Shown piece after piece: positions 3,320-11,725 of a DNA stretch of 64,000 nucleotides (position 1 is the stretch's first letter; every line of letters begins with the position of its first letter). A program made the translations under genes and the position numbers. Source of the DNA: Cryptosporangium minutisporangium (GTDB lineage Bacteria > Actinomycetota > Actinomycetes > Mycobacteriales > Cryptosporangiaceae); assembly GCF_039536245.1 (NCBI RefSeq), contig NZ_BAAAYN010000009.1:1-64000 (forward strand), read 5' to 3'. The notes under the pieces are model-generated. The model saw only the letters and a program-made list of their open reading frames with translations. It did no database searches and was not told the origin of the DNA.

Positions 3320-3787
3320 ATGAGCACGCAGGCCGCTCTGACGTCCGACACCACTGGTCGCCCACGCCCGTGGCGAGCCAGGATCACGGCGGGACTCCGT
3401 TTCGCCCGCCACTACCTGGAGATGGTGGCGGCCATGCTCGTCGGGATGGTCGTTCTGGGTTGGCTGGAGTCCCTACTGGCGTCGGCCATCGGCCACCCGC
3501 GTGCCCTGGACGGCGCGACGGTGTCGGCGTTGCTGATGGCCGCCAACATGTCGGTAGCGGTGGCCGCTTGGATGTCCGTGCGGCGTCACCGCCTCCCGCT
3601 CATCGGCGAAATGGTCGCCGGTATGAGCGTGGGTTTCGTGGCGCTGGTGCCGCTCTGGATGGGTGGGACCGGCCATCACCACGCGGCGACGATGGCCGGG
3701 CACGAGTGGATGTACCTCGGCATGCTCGTCGCCATGCTCGGCCGCAGGCAGTACTACTCCGATGAACAGGGGAATACTCATGGCTGA
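3320..3787 (+). CDS. Integral membrane protein, Met/His-rich (paralogue of 7193-7615)
   Basis: 155 residues from ATG 3320, preceded by GAAGGG (3306-3311). After a ~40-residue polar N-terminus it has the block RHYLEMVAAMLVGMVVLGW and then three or four further membrane helices, with a GTGHHHAATMAGH loop near the end. The same core pattern (LRF.RH..EM..AM..GM.VLG) is found in the protein at 7193-7615, so the two are paralogues on either side of a LuxR-ATPase gene. It overlaps the DUF899 gene by 8 bases. Family function is unknown; the Met and His content would suit metal handling, but this is inference. Confidence 0.65.
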   Translation: MSTQAALTSDTTGRPRPWRARITAGLRFARHYLEMVAAMLVGMVVLGWLESLLASAIGHPRALDGATVSALLMAANMSVAVAAWMSVRRHRLPLIGEMVAGMSVGFVALVPLWMGGTGHHHAATMAGHEWMYLGMLVAMLGRRQYYSDEQGNTHG

Positions 3788-4511
3788 CCAATCGATGCCC
3801 ACCGTCGTCGATCGAGCGACGTTCCAGTCCGAACTGGACCGTCTGCGGGTTCGGGAGAAGGCGCACACGCACGAAGGTGACGCGATCGCCGCGGCGCGGC
3901 GGCGGCTGCCGATGGTGGAGATCGACGCCACCATCGAGGTCATCGGCCCTTCCGGACCGATCCCGTTCCTGGACGTCTTCGAAGGCCGGAAGCAGCTGAT
4001 CGGGTACTTCCATGCCTGGTGGCCCGGCCGCCCGGCCGCGGAGCAGTGCGAGGGGTGCACGTTCTTCAACAGCCAGGTCCGCGAGCTGTCCTACGTCCAC
4101 TCCCGGGACATCACGTACGCGACGCTCTGCAAGGGCCCGTACGAGGAGAGCATCCGCTACCGGGACTTCCTCGGCTTGGACATGCCGTGGTACTCCGTCG
4201 AGAAGACGGCGCCGCAACTCCTGGAGGGCCGCGACTGGCAACGCCACCACCTGGTCTGCTACGTCCGCGACGGCGAGCGAGTGTTCGAGACCTACTACAC
4301 CGGCGGTCGCGGCGTCGAGATCATGGCCCCCACCCACGGGCTCCTGGACATGACCGTCTACGGACGGCAGGAGACGTGGGAGGACTCTCCCGAAGGCTGG
4401 CCCCAGCCCTGGGGTGACGCGCAGAACCCCGAGGTCTGGCGAACGAACGGACGCCCCATCGTGCAGTGGGCCCGCCTGGCGGCCGGACATTCGGACGACC
4501 TCGGCACCTGA
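3780..4511 (+). CDS. DUF899 family thioredoxin-like protein
   Basis: 243 residues. DUF899 proteins have a thioredoxin-like fold; the expected core is present: AAARRRLPMVEID near residue 40, LIGYFHAWWPG near 73-83, a C-E-G-C pair (Cys90, Cys93), then the YATLCKGP block and VFETYYTGGRG. The start at 3780 follows AGGGG at 3768-3772; the in-frame ATG at 3762 lies before that site. It overlaps the upstream membrane-protein gene, implying one transcript. Members are described only as redox or dithiol-disulfide-isomerase-like proteins, so the substrate is unknown. Confidence 0.8.
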   Translation: MADQSMPTVVDRATFQSELDRLRVREKAHTHEGDAIAAARRRLPMVEIDATIEVIGPSGPIPFLDVFEGRKQLIGYFHAWWPGRPAAEQCEGCTFFNSQVRELSYVHSRDITYATLCKGPYEESIRYRDFLGLDMPWYSVEKTAPQLLEGRDWQRHHLVCYVRDGERVFETYYTGGRGVEIMAPTHGLLDMTVYGRQETWEDSPEGWPQPWGDAQNPEVWRTNGRPIVQWARLAAGHSDDLGT

Positions 4512-4532: not shown

Positions 4533-7130
4533 ATGGAAGGCTCCGGCCCGACACTCCGCCCGAACACGATGAGGGCGACCGTGGTCCGGCGCGCCCGCCT
4601 AGCCGAGCGGCTGGACCCGGGAGCCGGTCGCCGGCTCACCGTCGTCGCGGCTCCGGCCGGCTACGGGAAGACGACGCTGCTCGGCACGTGGGCCGGAACC
4701 CGGGAACGGGTCGGTTGGCTGACGCTGGACGAGCGCGACAACGACCCGACCCGGTTCCTGTCCTCGCTGATCGGTGCGTTGCGGCAGGGCTCCGGCGAGG
4801 GCGAACTGGGGCAGGGCGTGCTGGCCGCGCTCCGCTCGCCGGACGTCCGTCACCCGGACGCGCTGATCGGCGCGCTGGTCAACGAGCTCGCACGGCGGCC
4901 GAGCACGGTCGACGTCGTCCTCGACGACTACCACGTCATCACCGGCGACGCGGTGCACCGGGTATGCGCCTTCCTGGTCGAACGCGCGCCGGAGCAGTTG
5001 CACGTGGTTCTGTCCGGCCGGGTCGATCCACCGCTGCCGCTGGCCCGGTGGCGGGTCCGCAACGAGCTGGTCCGGCTGGGAGCTGCCGACCTGGCGTTCA
5101 CGGCGTCGGAAGCCGCGGCGTTCGTGCGGGACGTGATGCGGCTGGACCTGCCGCGGCCGGACCTGATGAGGCTGCACGAGAAGACCGAAGGCTGGGCTGC
5201 CGGTCTGCAGATCGCGGCGCTCTCGCTGCGCGGCTGCGCCAACTCCGCGGGGTTCGTCGAGTCGTTCTCCGGCCGGCACCGGGACGTCTTCGACTTCCTC
5301 GGTGAGGAGGTCCTCGACCGGCAGCCCGCCGACGCGCGGCGGTTCCTCGTCGAGACGTCGATCCTCGACCACCTGAGCGGACCGCTGTGCGACGCGGTCA
5401 CCGGCCGGTCCGACGGGCAGGAGACGCTGGAGCGGCTGGAGCGGGAGAACCTGTTCGTCGTCGCTCTGGACGACGAACGCCGGTGGTACCGGTACCACCA
5501 TCTCTTCGCGGACTTCCTGCGTGCCCGGCTGGGCCCCGAGCGCGGCGAACTCCACGTCCGCGCGTCCCGCTGGTGCGAGGCGAACGGCGCCCTGCCGGAC
5601 GCGATCGGACACGCGATCGCGGCGGCCGACCACGACCGCGCGGTCGACCTGATCCAGCGGGGCACGGACGACGCCTGGAGCCGCGGCGAGGTGCCGACCG
5701 TGCTCGGCTGGATCGAGGCGTTGCCCGCCGACGTGGTGCGCGATCAGCCCACGCTCGTGCTCCAGCAAGCGCTGGCCCTGGCGCTGACCGGGAAGCCGGA
5801 CCGGGCGGAGCGGCTCGCCGCGTCCGTCGGCTGCGAGGAATCCGTGCCGGCGGGGTTCTCGGCCGCCGTCCGGTCCTGGTGCGCCCGGCTCCGCGGCGAT
5901 CTGCCCTCCGCGATCGACCTCGCCCGGCAGGCGCTCGCACTCCTGCCCGCGGACCGGGGCGGGCTCCGCGTCTTCGCCGCGGACTCCTTGGGCGACGCAC
6001 TGTGGTCACTCGGCGATCTCCCGGCGGCGGAGACGGCCCTCGCCGACGCCGCCGCGATCGGCCGCGACGCCGGCCACGTCTACGGCACGCTCTCGGCGCT
6101 GACACTGCTCGCGCGGGTCCAGTCCGAGCGCGGACGGCTCGGCCGGGCACACGCCACGCTCCTGCGGGCCGAACGGTACGTACTGCAGCAGGACATGGAG
6201 GCGTCCTCGGCCACGGCGGCGATCCACCTGGGGCTGGCGGCGCTGCGGTACGAGCGTGACGATCTGGACGCCGCGGAGGAGGCGTTCCGCACGGGCGTCG
6301 AGTCGGCCGAGCGGACCGGGAACGTCACGGACCTGACCTGGGGTCTGGTCGGCCTCTCCCGGCTCGAACACGCCCGCCACCGAACCGACGCCGCGCTCGG
6401 CACCGCCGCACGGGCGGAGCGGGTCGCCCGGGACTACGGGGCGAACCCGGAGGCCGTGGTCGCCGCGGCCTGGATGGTGCGGCTCCGCCTGCGGCGCAGT
6501 GAACTCCCGGAGGCCGCGGCTGCCGAGCAGACCCTGGCCCGGCACACCGAGGCCGGAACGCCGGGCGCGGAGATCCCCGGCCGGCTGGCCACGGCGAGGC
6601 TGCTGCACGCCCGCGGGCGCTCCCGCGATGCATTGGACCAGCTGCGGCCGCTCCGCGACGCTGCCCAGACGGCCGACCGGGGCCGGGATCTCCTCGAGAT
6701 CCTGGTGTTGCAGGCGCTCGCGCACGCGCAGGCGTCGATGCCGGACGAGGCCGCCGCGACGCTGGCCGACGCGTTCGGGCGAGCGGCGCCGGAGCACTAC
6801 GTCCGGACGTTCGTCGACGAAGGCCCGGCGCTGGCCGCACTGCTCCCGCGGGTCCCGGGCTCCGAGGAACTCCGTGCCGCGTTCGCGCGTCAGGCCGCCC
6901 CACCGCAGGCGGCGCTCGTCGAGCCGATGACCGATCGGGAGTCGGACGTCCTGCGGTTGCTCGCGGTGGGCAAGAACAACCGGGAGATCGCGGCGGAGCT
7001 GTTCGTCAGCGTCGGCACCGTCAAGACGCACCTGAACAACCTGTACCGCAAGCTCGGCGCGCACAGCCGGACGCAGGCGGTCGCGCGGGCCAGGGCGCTG
7101 AATCTGCCGTCGATCTCTACCTTTCGGTAG
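4533..7130 (+). CDS. LuxR family regulator with MalT-like ATPase (LAL type)
   Basis: 865 residues. An N-terminal P-loop ATPase has Walker A A-P-A-G-Y-G-K-T-T (residues 40-48) and Walker B-like VDVVLDDYHVI. A long helical TPR-like sensor region follows. The C-terminal ~65 residues are a GerE/LuxR helix-turn-helix (LTxRE-like start MTDRESDVLRLLA, then REIAAELFVSVGTVKTHLNNLYRKL). This is the domain order of MalT-like STAND activators, which bind ATP and an inducer, oligomerise and activate promoters. It lies between two operons holding paralogous membrane proteins, so either may be its target. The start is supported by the candidate -10 at 4519, not by a ribosome site. Confidence 0.88.
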   Translation: MEGSGPTLRPNTMRATVVRRARLAERLDPGAGRRLTVVAAPAGYGKTTLLGTWAGTRERVGWLTLDERDNDPTRFLSSLIGALRQGSGEGELGQGVLAALRSPDVRHPDALIGALVNELARRPSTVDVVLDDYHVITGDAVHRVCAFLVERAPEQLHVVLSGRVDPPLPLARWRVRNELVRLGAADLAFTASEAAAFVRDVMRLDLPRPDLMRLHEKTEGWAAGLQIAALSLRGCANSAGFVESFSGRHRDVFDFLGEEVLDRQPADARRFLVETSILDHLSGPLCDAVTGRSDGQETLERLERENLFVVALDDERRWYRYHHLFADFLRARLGPERGELHVRASRWCEANGALPDAIGHAIAAADHDRAVDLIQRGTDDAWSRGEVPTVLGWIEALPADVVRDQPTLVLQQALALALTGKPDRAERLAASVGCEESVPAGFSAAVRSWCARLRGDLPSAIDLARQALALLPADRGGLRVFAADSLGDALWSLGDLPAAETALADAAAIGRDAGHVYGTLSALTLLARVQSERGRLGRAHATLLRAERYVLQQDMEASSATAAIHLGLAALRYERDDLDAAEEAFRTGVESAERTGNVTDLTWGLVGLSRLEHARHRTDAALGTAARAERVARDYGANPEAVVAAAWMVRLRLRRSELPEAAAAEQTLARHTEAGTPGAEIPGRLATARLLHARGRSRDALDQLRPLRDAAQTADRGRDLLEILVLQALAHAQASMPDEAAATLADAFGRAAPEHYVRTFVDEGPALAALLPRVPGSEELRAAFARQAAPPQAALVEPMTDRESDVLRLLAVGKNNREIAAELFVSVGTVKTHLNNLYRKLGAHSRTQAVARARALNLPSISTFR

Positions 7131-7160
7131 AGCCGTCGGGGGGACGCTGATCGATAGCTT

Positions 7161-7180
7161 CCTGGCGATCGTCCGCCAGG
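7161..7180 (+). promoter_or_regulatory. Hairpin overlapping the ribosome binding site of the 7193 gene
   Basis: CCTGGCG (7161-7167) and CGCCAGG (7174-7180) form a 7-bp stem. The right arm includes the first bases of the AGGAGGGAG ribosome binding site (7178-7186) of the GTG start at 7193. It may modulate translation, or partly end transcription from the regulator gene upstream; there is no U-run. Confidence 0.35.
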
Positions 7181-7192
7181 AGGGAGAACGAC

Positions 7193-7615
7193 GTGCTGCG
7201 GTTCCTGCGCCACCTCGTCGAGATGCTGCTCGCGATGGGTGTCGGCATGGCCGTCCTCGGGATCGGCCTGATGGTCGTCGGTGAGCCGCCCGGGTACGAG
7301 GGCCCGCTGGTCACCTACGGCGCCATGGGTGTCGCGATGGCGGTCCCGATGGTCGCGTGGATGCGCTACCGCGGCCACTCCTGGTCCGACGGCGGGCAGA
7401 TGACCGCGGCGATGCTCGTGCCGATGTTCGTCCTGGTGATTCCGGTCGTGCTGGACGTCGCCCCGGCCTGGCTCGCGGCCGAGGGCACGCTGATGGTGCT
7501 GACCCACGTGGCGATGGTCGGCGGCATGGTCGCGTACATGCTCGTCCGCCGTGACCAGTACACCCAGGGTCATCACCGGCACTCGGCGCCGCAGCCCGAC
7601 AGCGCCCTCGGCTGA
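7193..7615 (+). CDS. Met-rich four-helix membrane protein
   Basis: 140 residues, GTG start with a strong AGGAGGGAG ribosome site. About four membrane helices, unusually rich in methionine (for example EMLLAMGVGMAVLG and THVAMVGGMVAYM), and a His-containing tail QGHHRHSAPQ. It is a paralogue of the protein at 3320-3787. It heads a run of three genes ending in a multicopper oxidase (5- and -4-base spacings), so one operon is very likely. Methionine and histidine ligands facing a membrane channel would suit copper(I), but no characterised family can be named. Confidence 0.65.
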   Translation: MLRFLRHLVEMLLAMGVGMAVLGIGLMVVGEPPGYEGPLVTYGAMGVAMAVPMVAWMRYRGHSWSDGGQMTAAMLVPMFVLVIPVVLDVAPAWLAAEGTLMVLTHVAMVGGMVAYMLVRRDQYTQGHHRHSAPQPDSALG

Positions 7616-7620
7616 CGGGC

Positions 7621-8961
7621 ATGAGCCGGATCCTCACGCGGATTGCCCGGGTCGCCGTCTACCTGATCGCGTTCGTCGTACCACCGGTCCTGATCAGCGT
7701 CTTCGGGGTGCGGGCCGCGCAGGCCGACCGCTACGAACCACCGCCCGCCGAGCGGAGCGCCCAGGTGACGCCGCCCGCCCACGACCCGGCGAAGCCGACC
7801 GCGGTCGTGCTGCTCAACCACGGTGGAACCGAGGTCACCGACGCCCTGGCCCCGTTCCAGGTCTTCGTGGAGTCCGGAGCGTTCAACGTCTACCTGGCGG
7901 CGCCCACGAAGCGGCGGGCGACGCTCAGCGGCGGACTGGACGTGCTGCCCCAGTTCTCGCTCGCCGACCTGGACCGCCGGCTCGGCGGCCGGTCGCCGGA
8001 CGTCGTCGTCGTGCCCGCGATGTGGCGGGTCGGGTCCGACGGACAGCGGCCGGTCGCCGACTGGCTGCGGAAACACGCCTCGGGCATCGGCACGCTGATG
8101 TCGGTCTGCGACGGCGCCGAGGTCCTCGCCGACGCCGGGCTGCTGGACGGACGGCGCGCGACCGCGAGCTGGGCCAACCTGCCGAAGTGGAAGAAGCGGT
8201 ACCCGGACACGCAGTGGGTGCAGGGCAGCCGCTACGTCCAGGACGGCACCGTTCTCACCAGCGCCGGTGTCACGTCCGGTGTCGTCGCCGCGCTGCACGT
8301 CGTCCGGGAACGGCTGGGCGAACCGGCCGCGACCGCGCTGAGCGAGCGCATCGGCTACCCCGACACCCGGCTCGGTGACGAGCCCCGGATCCCGGTCGAC
8401 ACCCTGAGCCCCGCCGATCGCGCCCTCTACGTGCTGCGCGCCGCCTGGACCCCGAACAAGCCGAGGATCGGGGTGGTGGTCACCGAGGGCGCGTCGGAGA
8501 TCGAACTCGCCTCCGCGTTCGACGCCTATCCGGGGCCGTCGTTCACGTCGCGGACCACGTCGCTGGGGTCCTCGCCGGTGCGGTCCGCGCACGGCCTCAC
8601 GTTCGTTCCGCGCTACACCGTCGAGAACGCTCCGGAACTCGACCGTCTCGTGGTGCCCGGCCGCGAGGTACCGCCCGACGTGCGCGCGTGGGCCGAGGAC
8701 AGCGGCGTTCGGCCGCACTACGTGCACGTGGGCACGACCGGGTTCCCGTTCGACGCGACGCTGCGCGACCTGGCCGAACACGAGAACGTGCCGCTCGCCC
8801 GCTTCAACGCTCGGCTGCTCGAGTACCCGACCGGCCACCTGTCGTTCACCGGCCCGGGCTGGCCGGTGCTACCGCTGGTCGCGCTGGTGGCCGTCGGGCT
8901 ACTGGGGCTCGGGACCGTCGGCGCGCTCGACGTCGTCATCCGGAGGAGGAGAAAGCAGTGA
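7621..8961 (+). CDS. Membrane-anchored DJ-1/PfpI (GlxA-like) domain protein
   Basis: 446 residues. A signal or anchor helix at 10-30, a first DJ-1/PfpI glutamine-amidotransferase-like domain with an S-V-C-D-G elbow (Cys163) and the ATASWANL and LTSAGVTSG blocks typical of GlxA/AraC-type regulators, a second degenerate copy starting near residue 280 (IGVVVTEGASEIELASAF), and a final membrane helix (about 415-438) followed by RRRRK. No helix-turn-helix is present, unlike in GlxA regulators. The two membrane ends place the domains outside the cytoplasm. The gene starts five bases after the previous stop and overlaps the oxidase gene (GTGA). Confidence 0.7.
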   Translation: MSRILTRIARVAVYLIAFVVPPVLISVFGVRAAQADRYEPPPAERSAQVTPPAHDPAKPTAVVLLNHGGTEVTDALAPFQVFVESGAFNVYLAAPTKRRATLSGGLDVLPQFSLADLDRRLGGRSPDVVVVPAMWRVGSDGQRPVADWLRKHASGIGTLMSVCDGAEVLADAGLLDGRRATASWANLPKWKKRYPDTQWVQGSRYVQDGTVLTSAGVTSGVVAALHVVRERLGEPAATALSERIGYPDTRLGDEPRIPVDTLSPADRALYVLRAAWTPNKPRIGVVVTEGASEIELASAFDAYPGPSFTSRTTSLGSSPVRSAHGLTFVPRYTVENAPELDRLVVPGREVPPDVRAWAEDSGVRPHYVHVGTTGFPFDATLRDLAEHENVPLARFNARLLEYPTGHLSFTGPGWPVLPLVALVAVGLLGLGTVGALDVVIRRRRKQ

Positions 8962-10391
8962 CGCAGACCGTCAGCCTGGAACCGGAGGACGAGTTCGACC
9001 TGCACATCGGACCGATTCGCAAGCGAATCGGCGGGGACGAGATCCCGATGCTCGCCTACAACGGCTCCGTTCCCGGCCCGACGCTACGCGTGCGCCAGGG
9101 CTCGGAGGTCACGGTGCACGTCACCAACGACAGCGACGCCGACACGACCGTGCACTGGCACGGCCTCCGGCTGGAGAACCGGTTCGACGGCGTGCCGGGG
9201 CAGACCCAGCCGCCGATACCACCGGGCGGGACGTTCGCGTACCGCCTGCGCTTCGGAGATCCGGGCCTGTACTGGTACCACCCGCACCTCCGCGAGGACT
9301 ACGGCCAGGAGATGGGGCTGTACGCGCCGATCGTGGTCGAGCCGGCGAACGCCGCGTACTGGCCGCCGGTCGACCGGGACCTGACGATCACGCTCGACGA
9401 CGTGCTGCTGGAGGACGGGCAGATGGTGCCGTTCGACCGCTCCGGGCCGAACTTCGCCGCGATGGGACGCTTCGGCAACGTGCTGCTCACCAACGGCGAG
9501 ACGACGTTCACCGCGCGGGCGGCGGTGGGGGAGGTGGTCCGGCTGTATCTGGTGAACACCGCGAACACCCGGATCTTCCGCGTCGCGCTGCCGGGGGCAC
9601 GGATGAAGCTCGTCGGTAGCGACTCCGGCCGCTACGAGCAGGAGGCGTTCGTGTCGTCGGTGCTGCTCGCGCCGTCGGAGCGGGCCGTCGTCGACGTGCG
9701 GTTCGACAGCCCGGGGCAGGTCGGGCTGGAGCACCGGACGCCCGAGCGGGTCTACGAGCTCGGATCCTTCTCCGTCGCGGGTGCGGCCGCGTCGTTCGCG
9801 TCGTTCGAGTCGTTGCGCACGGACCCGGAGCTGACCGAGATCCGTCGCGGTCTCGGACCGCAGCTGGAGCGGGAGCCGGACAAGACGCTGACGTTCGTCG
9901 CCGAGATGCCGGGGATGCATCATCACCACCACCATCACGACCACGACGCCGGGGACGGCATCGAGTGGGAAGACACGATGCCGGAGATGAACCGCGCCTC
10001 CGACCCGTCGAACACGGTGTGGAAGCTCGTCGACGCGGACACCGGTGCGGAGAACCACCAGATCGCGTGGACCTTCACCGCGGGCGACACGGTCAAGATC
10101 CGGCTGGTCAACACCCGGGAGTCCGACCACCCGATGCACCACCCGTTCCACGTGCACGGTGCCGGTCGGTTCCTCGTGCTGGCCAGGGACGGCGTCATCG
10201 AGCCCAACCTGGCCTGGAAGGACACGGTCCTGCTGCGAACCGGCGAGACCGTCGACATCTTGCTGCACGTCACGAATCCCGGGCGATGGATGGCGCACTG
10301 CCACATCGCCGAGCATCACGAGAGCGGGATGATGTTCAGCTTCGACGTGAGAGGAGCGTCGTTCAGCGAAGTTCCTCGACCAGCCCGATGA
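8958..10391 (+). CDS. Multicopper oxidase with internal heptahistidine run
   Basis: 477 residues, GTG start overlapping the previous stop. All copper-site blocks are present: H66-W-H68-G, H108-P-H110, H-P-F-H-V-H-G (residues 395-401) and A-H447-C448-H449-I-A-E-H453 followed by Met residues that could serve as axial ligand, so type 1 and trinuclear copper centres should form. A run of seven histidines (321-327) followed by D-H-D lies in the linker between the second and third cupredoxin domains. There is no Sec or Tat signal peptide, which is unusual because laccase/CueO-type enzymes normally act outside the cell. Likely role: copper(I) or phenol oxidation together with the two upstream proteins. 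The 3' end overlaps the convergent VOC gene. Confidence 0.9.
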   Translation: MTQTVSLEPEDEFDLHIGPIRKRIGGDEIPMLAYNGSVPGPTLRVRQGSEVTVHVTNDSDADTTVHWHGLRLENRFDGVPGQTQPPIPPGGTFAYRLRFGDPGLYWYHPHLREDYGQEMGLYAPIVVEPANAAYWPPVDRDLTITLDDVLLEDGQMVPFDRSGPNFAAMGRFGNVLLTNGETTFTARAAVGEVVRLYLVNTANTRIFRVALPGARMKLVGSDSGRYEQEAFVSSVLLAPSERAVVDVRFDSPGQVGLEHRTPERVYELGSFSVAGAAASFASFESLRTDPELTEIRRGLGPQLEREPDKTLTFVAEMPGMHHHHHHHDHDAGDGIEWEDTMPEMNRASDPSNTVWKLVDADTGAENHQIAWTFTAGDTVKIRLVNTRESDHPMHHPFHVHGAGRFLVLARDGVIEPNLAWKDTVLLRTGETVDILLHVTNPGRWMAHCHIAEHHESGMMFSFDVRGASFSEVPRPAR

Positions 10392-10800
10392 TGACGCCGG
10401 CGGGGCCGCGGACGTAGCAGTACCGGTAGTGGTCCTCGTACTGCGCCAGTTCGCCCACGAGCTCGGCGCCGTGACCGCGCAGCCGGTCGACGACGTCCTC
10501 GACCGCATCGACGACGAAGGTGAGCCGAGGGATGCCCGGGGTGTTCACCGGCTCCCACGGCGCACGGCCGGTGGCCACCGGCCGATGGAACGTCGACAGC
10601 TCGACCCGGCTCTGGCCGTCCGGGGTCCGCAGGAAAGCAAGGTCCGAACGCACGTCATTCAGCCCGACGAGCTGGTCCACCCAGGCGCCCTCGACCGTGG
10701 TCTCGCCCTCCAACTCCAAGCCCAGTTCGACGAAGAATCCGATCGCCGCCGCGAGATCCTCCACCACGAAGCCGACGTGATCCATCCGGTGAATCGCCAT
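10363..10800 (-). CDS. VOC (glyoxalase/bleomycin-resistance) family protein
   Basis: 145 residues from ATG 10800, preceded on its strand by GAGGAGATC. Two betaalphabetabetabeta modules are visible: the first begins IHRMDHVGFVVEDLAAAIGFF, the second IPRLTFVVDAVEDVVDRLRGHG, ending in YCYVRGPAGVIIGLVEEL, where the last Glu is the usual metal ligand. Typical length for a single-chain VOC dimer unit. The family includes lyases, dioxygenases and antibiotic-binding proteins; nothing here decides between them. It overlaps the oxidase gene tail to tail by 29 bases. The hydrolase gene lies upstream on the same strand. Confidence 0.8.
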   Translation of the reverse strand: MAIHRMDHVGFVVEDLAAAIGFFVELGLELEGETTVEGAWVDQLVGLNDVRSDLAFLRTPDGQSRVELSTFHRPVATGRAPWEPVNTPGIPRLTFVVDAVEDVVDRLRGHGAELVGELAQYEDHYRYCYVRGPAGVIIGLVEELR

Positions 10801-10852: not shown

Positions 10853-11725
10853 TTAGGCGCCCAGTACGTGCCTGTGCAGCTGCGGTAGGACCACATCCCA
10901 CACGGCGGGCGGCGGGATTTCGTGACCCACTCCCGCGAGGCGTACGAGCCGGGCCCCCGGGATCACTCGCGCGAGCGCCTCCCCGTGCGGGAGCGGAAAC
11001 ATCGGGTCGTCGGCGCTGTGCAGGACGAGGGTCGGCACCCGGATCTCGGCCGGGTCCACCGCGGTTCCGGAGCCGGCGACGAAGTGGTTCATCATCGACG
11101 ACGCCATGTCGCGGCTGCGGCGCACTTCGAGGGTCGCCAGGGCGCGCACCCGCGGCTCGTCGAGCCCGAGCGGGCCGGCGAACGGGCGCTCCACGTCGAC
11201 ACGGTAGTCGATGACCCTGTTCTCATCGGTCCAGTCGATCTCCGGCTCGGGTTCCTCCCAGGTCGCGGCCACCGCGCGGCTCGGCGGCGGCAGTTCCCCG
11301 TGGTCGCCACCTGCGGGGCTGGTCTCGACGAGCGTCAGGGACCGCACCCGCTCGCGGTTGCGCACCGCGATGTTCTGCGCGATGCCGCCCCCCATCGACA
11401 TGCCGACGAGATGCGCTTCGTCGATGCCGAGCGCATCGAGGATGCGGAGTGGATCGTCCGCGAGGTCATCGCCGGTGTAATCGGGCCGTCCCGGCGGGGA
11501 CGCGCTCGATTGACCGGTATCCCGGTGGTCGTACCGGATCACTTGCAACTGGCCGGCGCCGAGCAGGTCGCAGAATTCGGGGGTCCACCAGTCCATCGAC
11601 TGGGCGCCGCCGGCGAGAAGCAGCAGCGCGGGTGCGCCGGTGGGGCCGCGGCGCTCGATCGCCAACTCGACGCCGTCGAGTTCGAGGATTTCGGTGTCGG
11701 CAGTGGATGCACGGTAGGTAGTCAT
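10853..11725 (-). CDS. Alpha/beta-fold hydrolase
   Basis: 290 residues. Classic alpha/beta-hydrolase layout: oxyanion region LLLLAGGAQSMDWW, RYDHRDTGQS, nucleophile G-M-S-M-G-G, acid in LHSADDPMFP and histidine in LAGVGHEIPP. It resembles the pimeloyl-ester/aclacinomycin-methylesterase (RdmC-like) group. ATG 11725 is chosen over an upstream extension because the divergent operator at 11761-11789 would otherwise be inside the gene. It is divergent from a LysR gene that probably controls it. Confidence 0.85.
   Translation of the reverse strand: MTTYRASTADTEILELDGVELAIERRGPTGAPALLLLAGGAQSMDWWTPEFCDLLGAGQLQVIRYDHRDTGQSSASPPGRPDYTGDDLADDPLRILDALGIDEAHLVGMSMGGGIAQNIAVRNRERVRSLTLVETSPAGGDHGELPPPSRAVAATWEEPEPEIDWTDENRVIDYRVDVERPFAGPLGLDEPRVRALATLEVRRSRDMASSMMNHFVAGSGTAVDPAEIRVPTLVLHSADDPMFPLPHGEALARVIPGARLVRLAGVGHEIPPPAVWDVVLPQLHRHVLGA

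Follow-up and report, generated by a model that had tools for sequence, protein, structure and literature searches.

Do a methionine-rich (Met-rich) membrane protein, a double DJ-1/PfpI protein and a multicopper oxidase, encoded side by side in Cryptosporangium minutisporangium, make up a system of their own, and does that system handle copper? The three genes lie at 7193–10391 of a 64,000-nucleotide stretch of the genome, hereafter the window (assembly GCF_039536245.1, contig NZ_BAAAYN010000009.1, positions 1 to 64,000 of the forward strand). A preliminary description, made from the sequence alone, had proposed a copper or oxidation module. We favor, with a probability of roughly 0.58, an operon that acts as a copper-handling module of new composition at the cytoplasmic membrane. 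Its three genes are as follows.

7193–7615, + strand: Met-rich membrane protein with MxxxM stripes in four predicted helices; GTG start, 140 residues, 16 Met
7621–8961, + strand: membrane-anchored double DJ-1/PfpI protein (DJ-1x2), 446 residues; domain 1 with a nucleophile Cys, domain 2 without
8958–10391, + strand: leaderless three-domain multicopper oxidase with a His7 interdomain linker; GTG start, 477 residues

Our analysis confirmed the three genes on the + strand in this order, overlapping or nearly so as first described. A gap of 5 bp separates the Met-rich and DJ-1x2 genes. The DJ-1x2 and oxidase genes overlap by 4 bp (GTGA), such that the GTG start of the oxidase overlaps the DJ-1x2 stop, and a purine-rich stretch resembling a ribosome-binding site precedes this start. 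A literature search found no description of the Met-rich family or of a Met-rich/DJ-1/oxidase system, in line with the preliminary description, which knew of none. Oxidase and DJ-1 both fall into known superfamilies; neither the Met-rich family nor the composition of the operon appears in the literature found. The nearest case, in the excerpted text of PMC3637587, is the mecA region of Staphylococcus haemolyticus, where a ThiJ/PfpI gene is listed about 14 kb from copA and a putative multicopper oxidase gene.

The Met-rich membrane protein family

The Met-rich protein of the operon matched no Pfam or NCBIfam family above cut-off and no PDB entry by sequence. An initial alignment of 13 members supplied a profile, with which the available loci were searched; the final alignment comprises 41 distinct members, those of the window among them. 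Across it, eleven Met and two His hardly vary: M11, M15, M19, and H7 in 40/40; M49, M70, M74, and M112 in 41/41, as is R60; M53 and M57 in 40/41; M45 and H105 in 39/41; and M108 in 38/41. Retention of 11 Met columns in at least 38 of 40–41 distinct members is beyond chance. The substitutions seen include Cys for His105 in two members, and Asp (four members) or Arg (one) for His62. Helix by helix, the conserved residues spell MxxxMxxxM (1), MxxxMxxxMxxxM (2), MxxxM (3), and HxxMxxxM (4). Because eleven Met and two His are near-invariant as MxxxM stripes in the four predicted helices, the alignment suggests a Cu(I) site.

An AlphaFold2 model built from four sequences shows four helices with a mean predicted local distance difference test (pLDDT) score of 85.4. 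Foldseek comparison of this model with the PDB returned 25 rows, none with E ≤ 0.001 (best E = 3.1), and VIA-align gave weak helical rows only (best Z 6.0), which does not demonstrate a new fold. Copper channels of the Ctr1/SLC31 type have three helices and carry MxxxM motifs in them. The Met-rich protein is similar in its intramembrane Met stripes and may differ in its number of helices: the model contains four, of which plain hydropathy at a 1.6 cut-off marks three (helix 2 reaches 1.58). Neither PDB sequence nor Foldseek comparison gave a significant match. The copper importer CcoA (CalT) is a major facilitator superfamily transporter of about 12 helices. In contrast, the Met-rich protein is 140 residues long, and each of its four predicted helices bears a Met stripe. 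It shares with CcoA the placement of MxxxM/HxxxM motifs inside membrane helices; in CcoA, M233xxxM237 and H261xxxM265 are required for copper import, according to the excerpted text of PMC7558416.

The family is present in 26 of 121 genomes of the order and in 12 of 396 genomes of the phylum, own genome counted in each; in the phylum set, G148 and G233 are represented by short pieces, and a contig end truncates G486. The C. minutisporangium genome has a third Met-rich gene elsewhere (C23), beside genes for a histidine kinase, a NarL-type regulator, and a membrane protein that we call MP2. Two matches were found among 72,556 plasmid records, on Rubrobacter radiotolerans plasmid 1 (58%, annotated as a hypothetical protein) and in Nonomuraea gerenzanensis (36%). 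No relative was found in viral contigs.

We scanned 32 Met-rich loci (the window and 31 others) for neighbors of named families. Enlarged stretches cover 20 places, six more of one genus (G028, G047, G055, G090, G097, G111) kept their original size, and the HMA, E1-E2 ATPase, HisKA_3, Response_reg, and GerE neighbors were confirmed by Pfam on examples. Among the families sought, regulators are the commonest: a histidine kinase/NarL pair or a LuxR/MalT-type gene occurs at 25 of the 32 loci, although some 2 to 3 kb off at L206 and L209. DJ-1x2 genes occur at 12 loci and MP2 at nine. Multicopper oxidase genes lie near four Met-rich genes (window, L077, L083, L212). Copper genes of the HMA/CopA type are found at two loci: a CopZ-like HMA gene adjoins the Met-rich gene in G084, and the Met-rich gene stands between HMA and CopA genes in G056. 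A DJ-1 gene adjoining a Met-rich gene in Nonomuraea was judged by eye to encode an AraC-type regulator and left uncounted. The proteins of the MP2 family, also membrane proteins, start with an RRWPT-like sequence, and the one member tested has no match in Pfam; examples are L083:5277–5876, L198:6295–6834, L212:416–1039, and two copies in L207.

The double DJ-1 protein and the leaderless oxidase

The second gene encodes, as first described, a double DJ-1 protein with a helix at both ends. Pfam DJ-1_PfpI (E = 3e-21) matches two stretches, and hydrophobic peaks at residues 11–29 and 416–434 are helical in the model. The nucleophile elbow VC of domain 1 is invariant in 13/13 DJ-1x2 proteins; domain 2 has no Cys. 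Domain 1 adopts the DJ-1 fold (Foldseek: 3mgk, E = 1e-13; human DJ-1 1j42, about 1e-11) within a whole-protein model that is weak (mean pLDDT 64). In fold and nucleophile Cys it resembles isonitrile hydratase and human DJ-1, whereas the combination of two domains, one of them Cys-less, in one chain between hydrophobic helices sets the protein apart from both. GlxA/FtrA-type regulators carry a C-terminal AraC DNA-binding domain. DJ-1x2 differs from these as well, with no helix-turn-helix match in Pfam and a hydrophobic helix at its C-terminal end. Since each terminal helix has basic residues beside it, the arrangement suggests that the DJ-1 domains lie outside the membrane. Cys-106 of human DJ-1 is reported to bind Cu(I) (Girotto 2014, as cited in the excerpted text of PMC9035749).

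Among 120 other genomes sampled from the order, 10 encode a full-length DJ-1x2 relative, one at 87% (same genus) and the others at 37–44%. A Met-rich gene lies just upstream at 9 of these 10 loci, and no oxidase gene lies within 20 kb of any of them. In the sister genome G036, the gene that follows DJ-1x2 encodes a DUF899 protein in place of the oxidase, also with a 4-bp overlap. The conserved core comprises a LuxR-type regulator, the Met-rich protein, and DJ-1x2. Spread of the module on plasmids was rejected because the plasmid records contain no match to DJ-1x2 (E ≤ 1e-30) or to the oxidase (E ≤ 1e-60). A scan of genome contigs with the DJ-1 protein alone as query gave no match.

The oxidase is full length, as had been claimed, with the Pfam models Cu-oxidase_3 (E = 2e-33), Cu-oxidase_2 (2e-27), and Cu-oxidase (4e-9) all above cut-off. 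Multicopper oxidases bind copper through HxH, HxH, HxxHxH, and HCHxxxHxxxxM motifs. The corresponding residues, H66/H68, H108/H110, H395/H398/H400, and H447/C448/H449/H453/M458, are invariant in 9/9 aligned proteins and form the full set. The protein also carries seven consecutive His (EMPGMHHHHHHHDHD). Domain order and ligand motifs are those of CueO and CopA(PcoA)-type cuprous oxidases, and PDB relatives include 4f7k, the Thermus laccase 2xu9, and CueO; the best NCBIfam matches, TIGR01480 and CueO, both fall under cut-off (CueO 155.8 bits versus 525).

CueO is exported with a Tat (twin-arginine translocation) signal. The window oxidase has no signal peptide, nor any hydrophobic segment: its highest 19-residue mean is 1.1. 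The reading frame extends upstream without a stop as far as 8379, within the DJ-1 gene; over its final 100 residues this extension is Arg-rich and lacks a hydrophobic stretch (best 15-residue mean 0.25), and therefore no export signal is seen there. An upstream Tat start, which the preliminary description had named beforehand as refuting, was not found in these 100 residues, and neither was a Sec (general secretory) start.

The preliminary description noted the missing signal peptide and the His run; we find that neither is an oddity of this gene and that both belong to its clade. A profile search supplied the best 80 of a longer list of named relatives, and a tree of 87 sequences places the window copy within a clade of 24 (support 1.0) from actinobacteria and, by record title, a Sphaerobacter and an Anaerolineae assembly. 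This count excludes the fragmentary or frame-shifted L046, L071, and L073, whose surroundings yielded no DJ-1, DJ-1x2, or Met-rich gene, as well as the duplicates L045, L065, and L067. In the other 23 clade oxidases there is no leader just upstream of the homologous part, with a best 15-residue hydropathy of at most 1.3 except at L079, where 1.9 (1.6 in a second reading) is reached ahead of the likely start. Among 63 deeper relatives, 28 reach at least 2.0 upstream, the remainder being read over a stretch too short to tell. Absence of a signal peptide thus appears, from these sequences, to be a trait of the clade.

A second departure from CueO and CopA(PcoA) is the linker between domains 2 and 3, which contains zero to three inserted heavy-metal-binding domains (HMBD) and His runs. 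One to three copies of a CPMHPEV..CPKCGMKL motif, identified as Pfam HMBD (L066 tested, E = 6e-38), are found in 16 of the 24 oxidases, and most linkers in the clade have a His-rich stretch behind the insert. The eight without an insert are the window copy, L064, L077, L078, L080, L081, L082, and L083. The six nearest tree relatives of the window oxidase all have the insert (support 0.996), and because of this we read its His7 as probably a remnant of a linker that elsewhere holds HMBD; separate gains within the clade, instead of loss, are possible. An artifactual origin of the His run was rejected, as relatives have His-rich linkers at the same place. The insert behaves as a variable metal-binding cassette whose bearers include L066, L072, L094, L108, L129, L148, and ten others. 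The Jiangella aurantiaca oxidase (L083, 5893) has a natural hexahistidine run at its start, MNTHHHHHH, which likewise speaks against an artifact.

Association of the families and a proposed role in copper handling

The co-occurrence across actinomycetes to which the preliminary description looked holds in part. All three families lie within about 6 kb in Virgisporangium aurantiacum (L077; oxidase 5069–6544, DJ-1x2 9120–10586, Met-rich about 10911–11297), and together with regulator and kinase genes and a soluble DJ-1 gene they fall within 8 kb, in differing orientations. In Jiangella aurantiaca (L083) the Met-rich, MP2, and oxidase genes are consecutive, the Met-rich and oxidase genes being about 0.65 kb apart, and L212 combines Met-rich and MP2 genes with a more distant oxidase gene. 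The oxidase, however, is not constant. We regard it as an optional partner of the core operon because no such oxidase turns up at E ≤ 1e-30 in three same-genus genomes, and its absence from these genomes and from all ten other DJ-1x2 loci led us to reject a fixed three-gene system.

We compared the flanks (3 to 20 kb) of the 23 other clade oxidases (303 kb, window left out) with those of the 63 deeper relatives (721 kb). DJ-1 domains occur near 6 of 23 clade oxidases versus 0 of 63 deeper ones (Fisher 0.0002), and at five of the six loci the DJ-1 gene directly adjoins the oxidase gene. L064 and L065 had been seen first and prompted this test; without L064 and L094 the ratio is 4/21 (Fisher 0.003). 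The DJ-1 profile of 21 sequences included the window domain and both DJ-1 genes of L065 (= L094), so that L094 matches by construction. As a control, 512 kb around Met-rich genes plus the window contained, DJ-1x2 aside, three DJ-1 genes, which lie at two loci. A Met-rich gene occurs at 2 of 23 clade flanks and at none of the 63 deeper flanks; for the clade flanks, a rough estimate that takes 28 genes in 121 genomes of an assumed 5.6 Mb each would predict about 0.0125. Deeper oxidases have CopA at 15/63 loci and CsoR at 5/63; one clade oxidase has CsoR and Cu P-type ATPase genes about 2.4 kb downstream.

The DJ-1 domains beside the oxidases of L082, L094, and L108 are paired, each pair with one Cys-bearing and one Cys-less member, like the halves of the window DJ-1x2. 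L064 and L144 have a Cys-less domain near the oxidase, and the soluble DJ-1 protein of L077 has the Cys. Such pairs may reflect a partnership of active and inactive DJ-1 domains.

All three clade oxidases with a Met-rich neighbor (window, L077, L083) lack the HMBD insert (hypergeometric 0.028; 0.083 without the window), a weak correlation that gives only a hint of membrane partners loading or placing the oxidase. Across the 396 genomes, clade oxidase and Met-rich genes share three genomes besides that of the window versus 0.28 expected (P about 0.002), or two without G148 (P about 0.03). We give this little weight because G148 rests on a 24-residue fragment and the genes are on different contigs in all three.

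In the copper-handling module that we favor, the regulator would switch the operon on under copper or a linked stress. The Met-rich protein would bind Cu(I) inside its helix bundle and hand it on, either across the membrane or along it. The DJ-1 pair, outside the membrane with its basic ends inside, could bind or guard Cu(I) through the nucleophile Cys. The oxidase, presumably gained in this strain as an optional and translationally coupled partner, would work at the inner membrane face and oxidize Cu(I) with O2, its His7 linker perhaps taking up copper. Several observations weigh against this reading. Copper binding and transport and its direction, as well as copper as the ligand, sidedness, regulation, and the oxidase site of action, are inferred from sequence, models, and neighborhoods. 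The membrane would separate the leaderless oxidase from the outward-facing DJ-1 pair. The model of DJ-1 domain 2 is poor, and one Met-rich helix falls under the hydropathy cut-off. The oxidase is missing from the same-genus genomes and the other DJ-1x2 loci described above. HMA/CopA genes accompany only 2 of 32 Met-rich loci, both from one genus; seven of the 32 have none of the regulators sought, and five of those seven (L208, L210, L211, L213, L214) have no partner sought. Finally, kinship among the genomes means that they do not count as independent, and most of the 63 deeper oxidases are from other phyla.

The DJ-1 and DUF899 neighbors, and the prevalence of regulators at Met-rich loci, would also suit a defense against oxidants, with membrane Met as sacrificial or sensing sulfurs for HOCl or peroxide, the DJ-1 pair and DUF899 repairing or sensing carbonyl or thiol damage, and copper incidental. 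Scavenging requires no fixed positions, yet the Met form near-invariant i, i+4 stripes, and oxidase, CopA, and HMA neighbors recur; we consider this explanation unlikely. The same regulator genes, at 25 of 32 loci, could mean that the Met-rich protein is the membrane input unit of the adjoining LuxR or two-component regulator and no transporter. The seven loci without such a regulator include both CopA/HMA loci, which makes a purely signaling role quite unlikely, although such a role may hold together with copper binding.

Another possibility concerns only the oxidase, whose patchy occurrence could reflect chance arrival beside an unrelated Met-rich/DJ-1 operon. The joint presence of the same families in Virgisporangium and, in part, in Jiangella, the DJ-1 enrichment at clade oxidases, and the 4-bp overlap with a ribosome-site-like stretch ahead of the oxidase start render this improbable. 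A haem or other redox membrane protein, with the conserved His (7, 62, 105) and Met of the helix bundle as haem ligands, is very improbable: there is far more Met than haem requires, and the His105 and His62 substitutions noted above alter proposed ligands.

Beyond the copper-handling reading itself, one could tentatively see in the Met-rich family a Cu(I) channel or carrier so far unrecognized in bacteria. Its four helices would form a methionine cage, the actinobacterial counterpart of eukaryotic Ctr. Outside the cytoplasm, the DJ-1 pair, in which one domain has the thiol and the other lacks it, would act as a copper chaperone of the envelope and exchange copper with this cage, which would replace the lost HMBD metal delivery where a clade oxidase joins. 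This extension is possible, if on balance doubtful. Little is known of copper import in bacteria, and this compact family, whose four predicted helices carry fixed MxxxM stripes, offers a candidate that can be tested. The DJ-1 link would provide a bacterial genetic model for the debated copper role of DJ-1, and a leaderless oxidase clade with zero to three metal-binding inserts raises the question of what multicopper oxidases do in the cytosol.

Upstream genes and inverted repeats

Directly upstream of the three genes, on the same strand, are a paralogous Met-rich gene, a DUF899 gene, and a regulator gene.

3320–3787, + strand: second, paralogous Met-rich membrane protein
about 3780–4511 (start approximate), + strand: DUF899 protein (Pfam E = 6e-46)
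4533–7130, + strand: MalT-like LuxR regulator (ATPase-TPR-GerE; Pfam TPR_MalT E = 2e-48, GerE 1e-19)
7161–7180, + strand: inverted repeat CCTGGCG N6 CGCCAGG, directly ahead of the Met-rich gene

The MalT-like regulator likely controls the operon. A copy with 86% identity occupies the same place in the sister genome G036, and a MalT-type regulator gene stands beside the Met-rich and DJ-1x2 genes in the distant G310. The inverted repeat at 7161–7180 may be an operator, a hairpin, or a chance occurrence; its arms are retained with one loop change in G036, a close relative.

DUF899 genes accompany the Met-rich and DJ-1x2 genes in two related genomes at differing positions (3780–4511 in the window; 8558–9142 in L031), and the two proteins share only 39% identity over 159 residues. 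A further inverted repeat, CTCTACC-tttc-GGTAGAG (7115–7132), covers the last codons and the stop of the MalT-like gene, and 6 of its 7 pairs are retained in G036.

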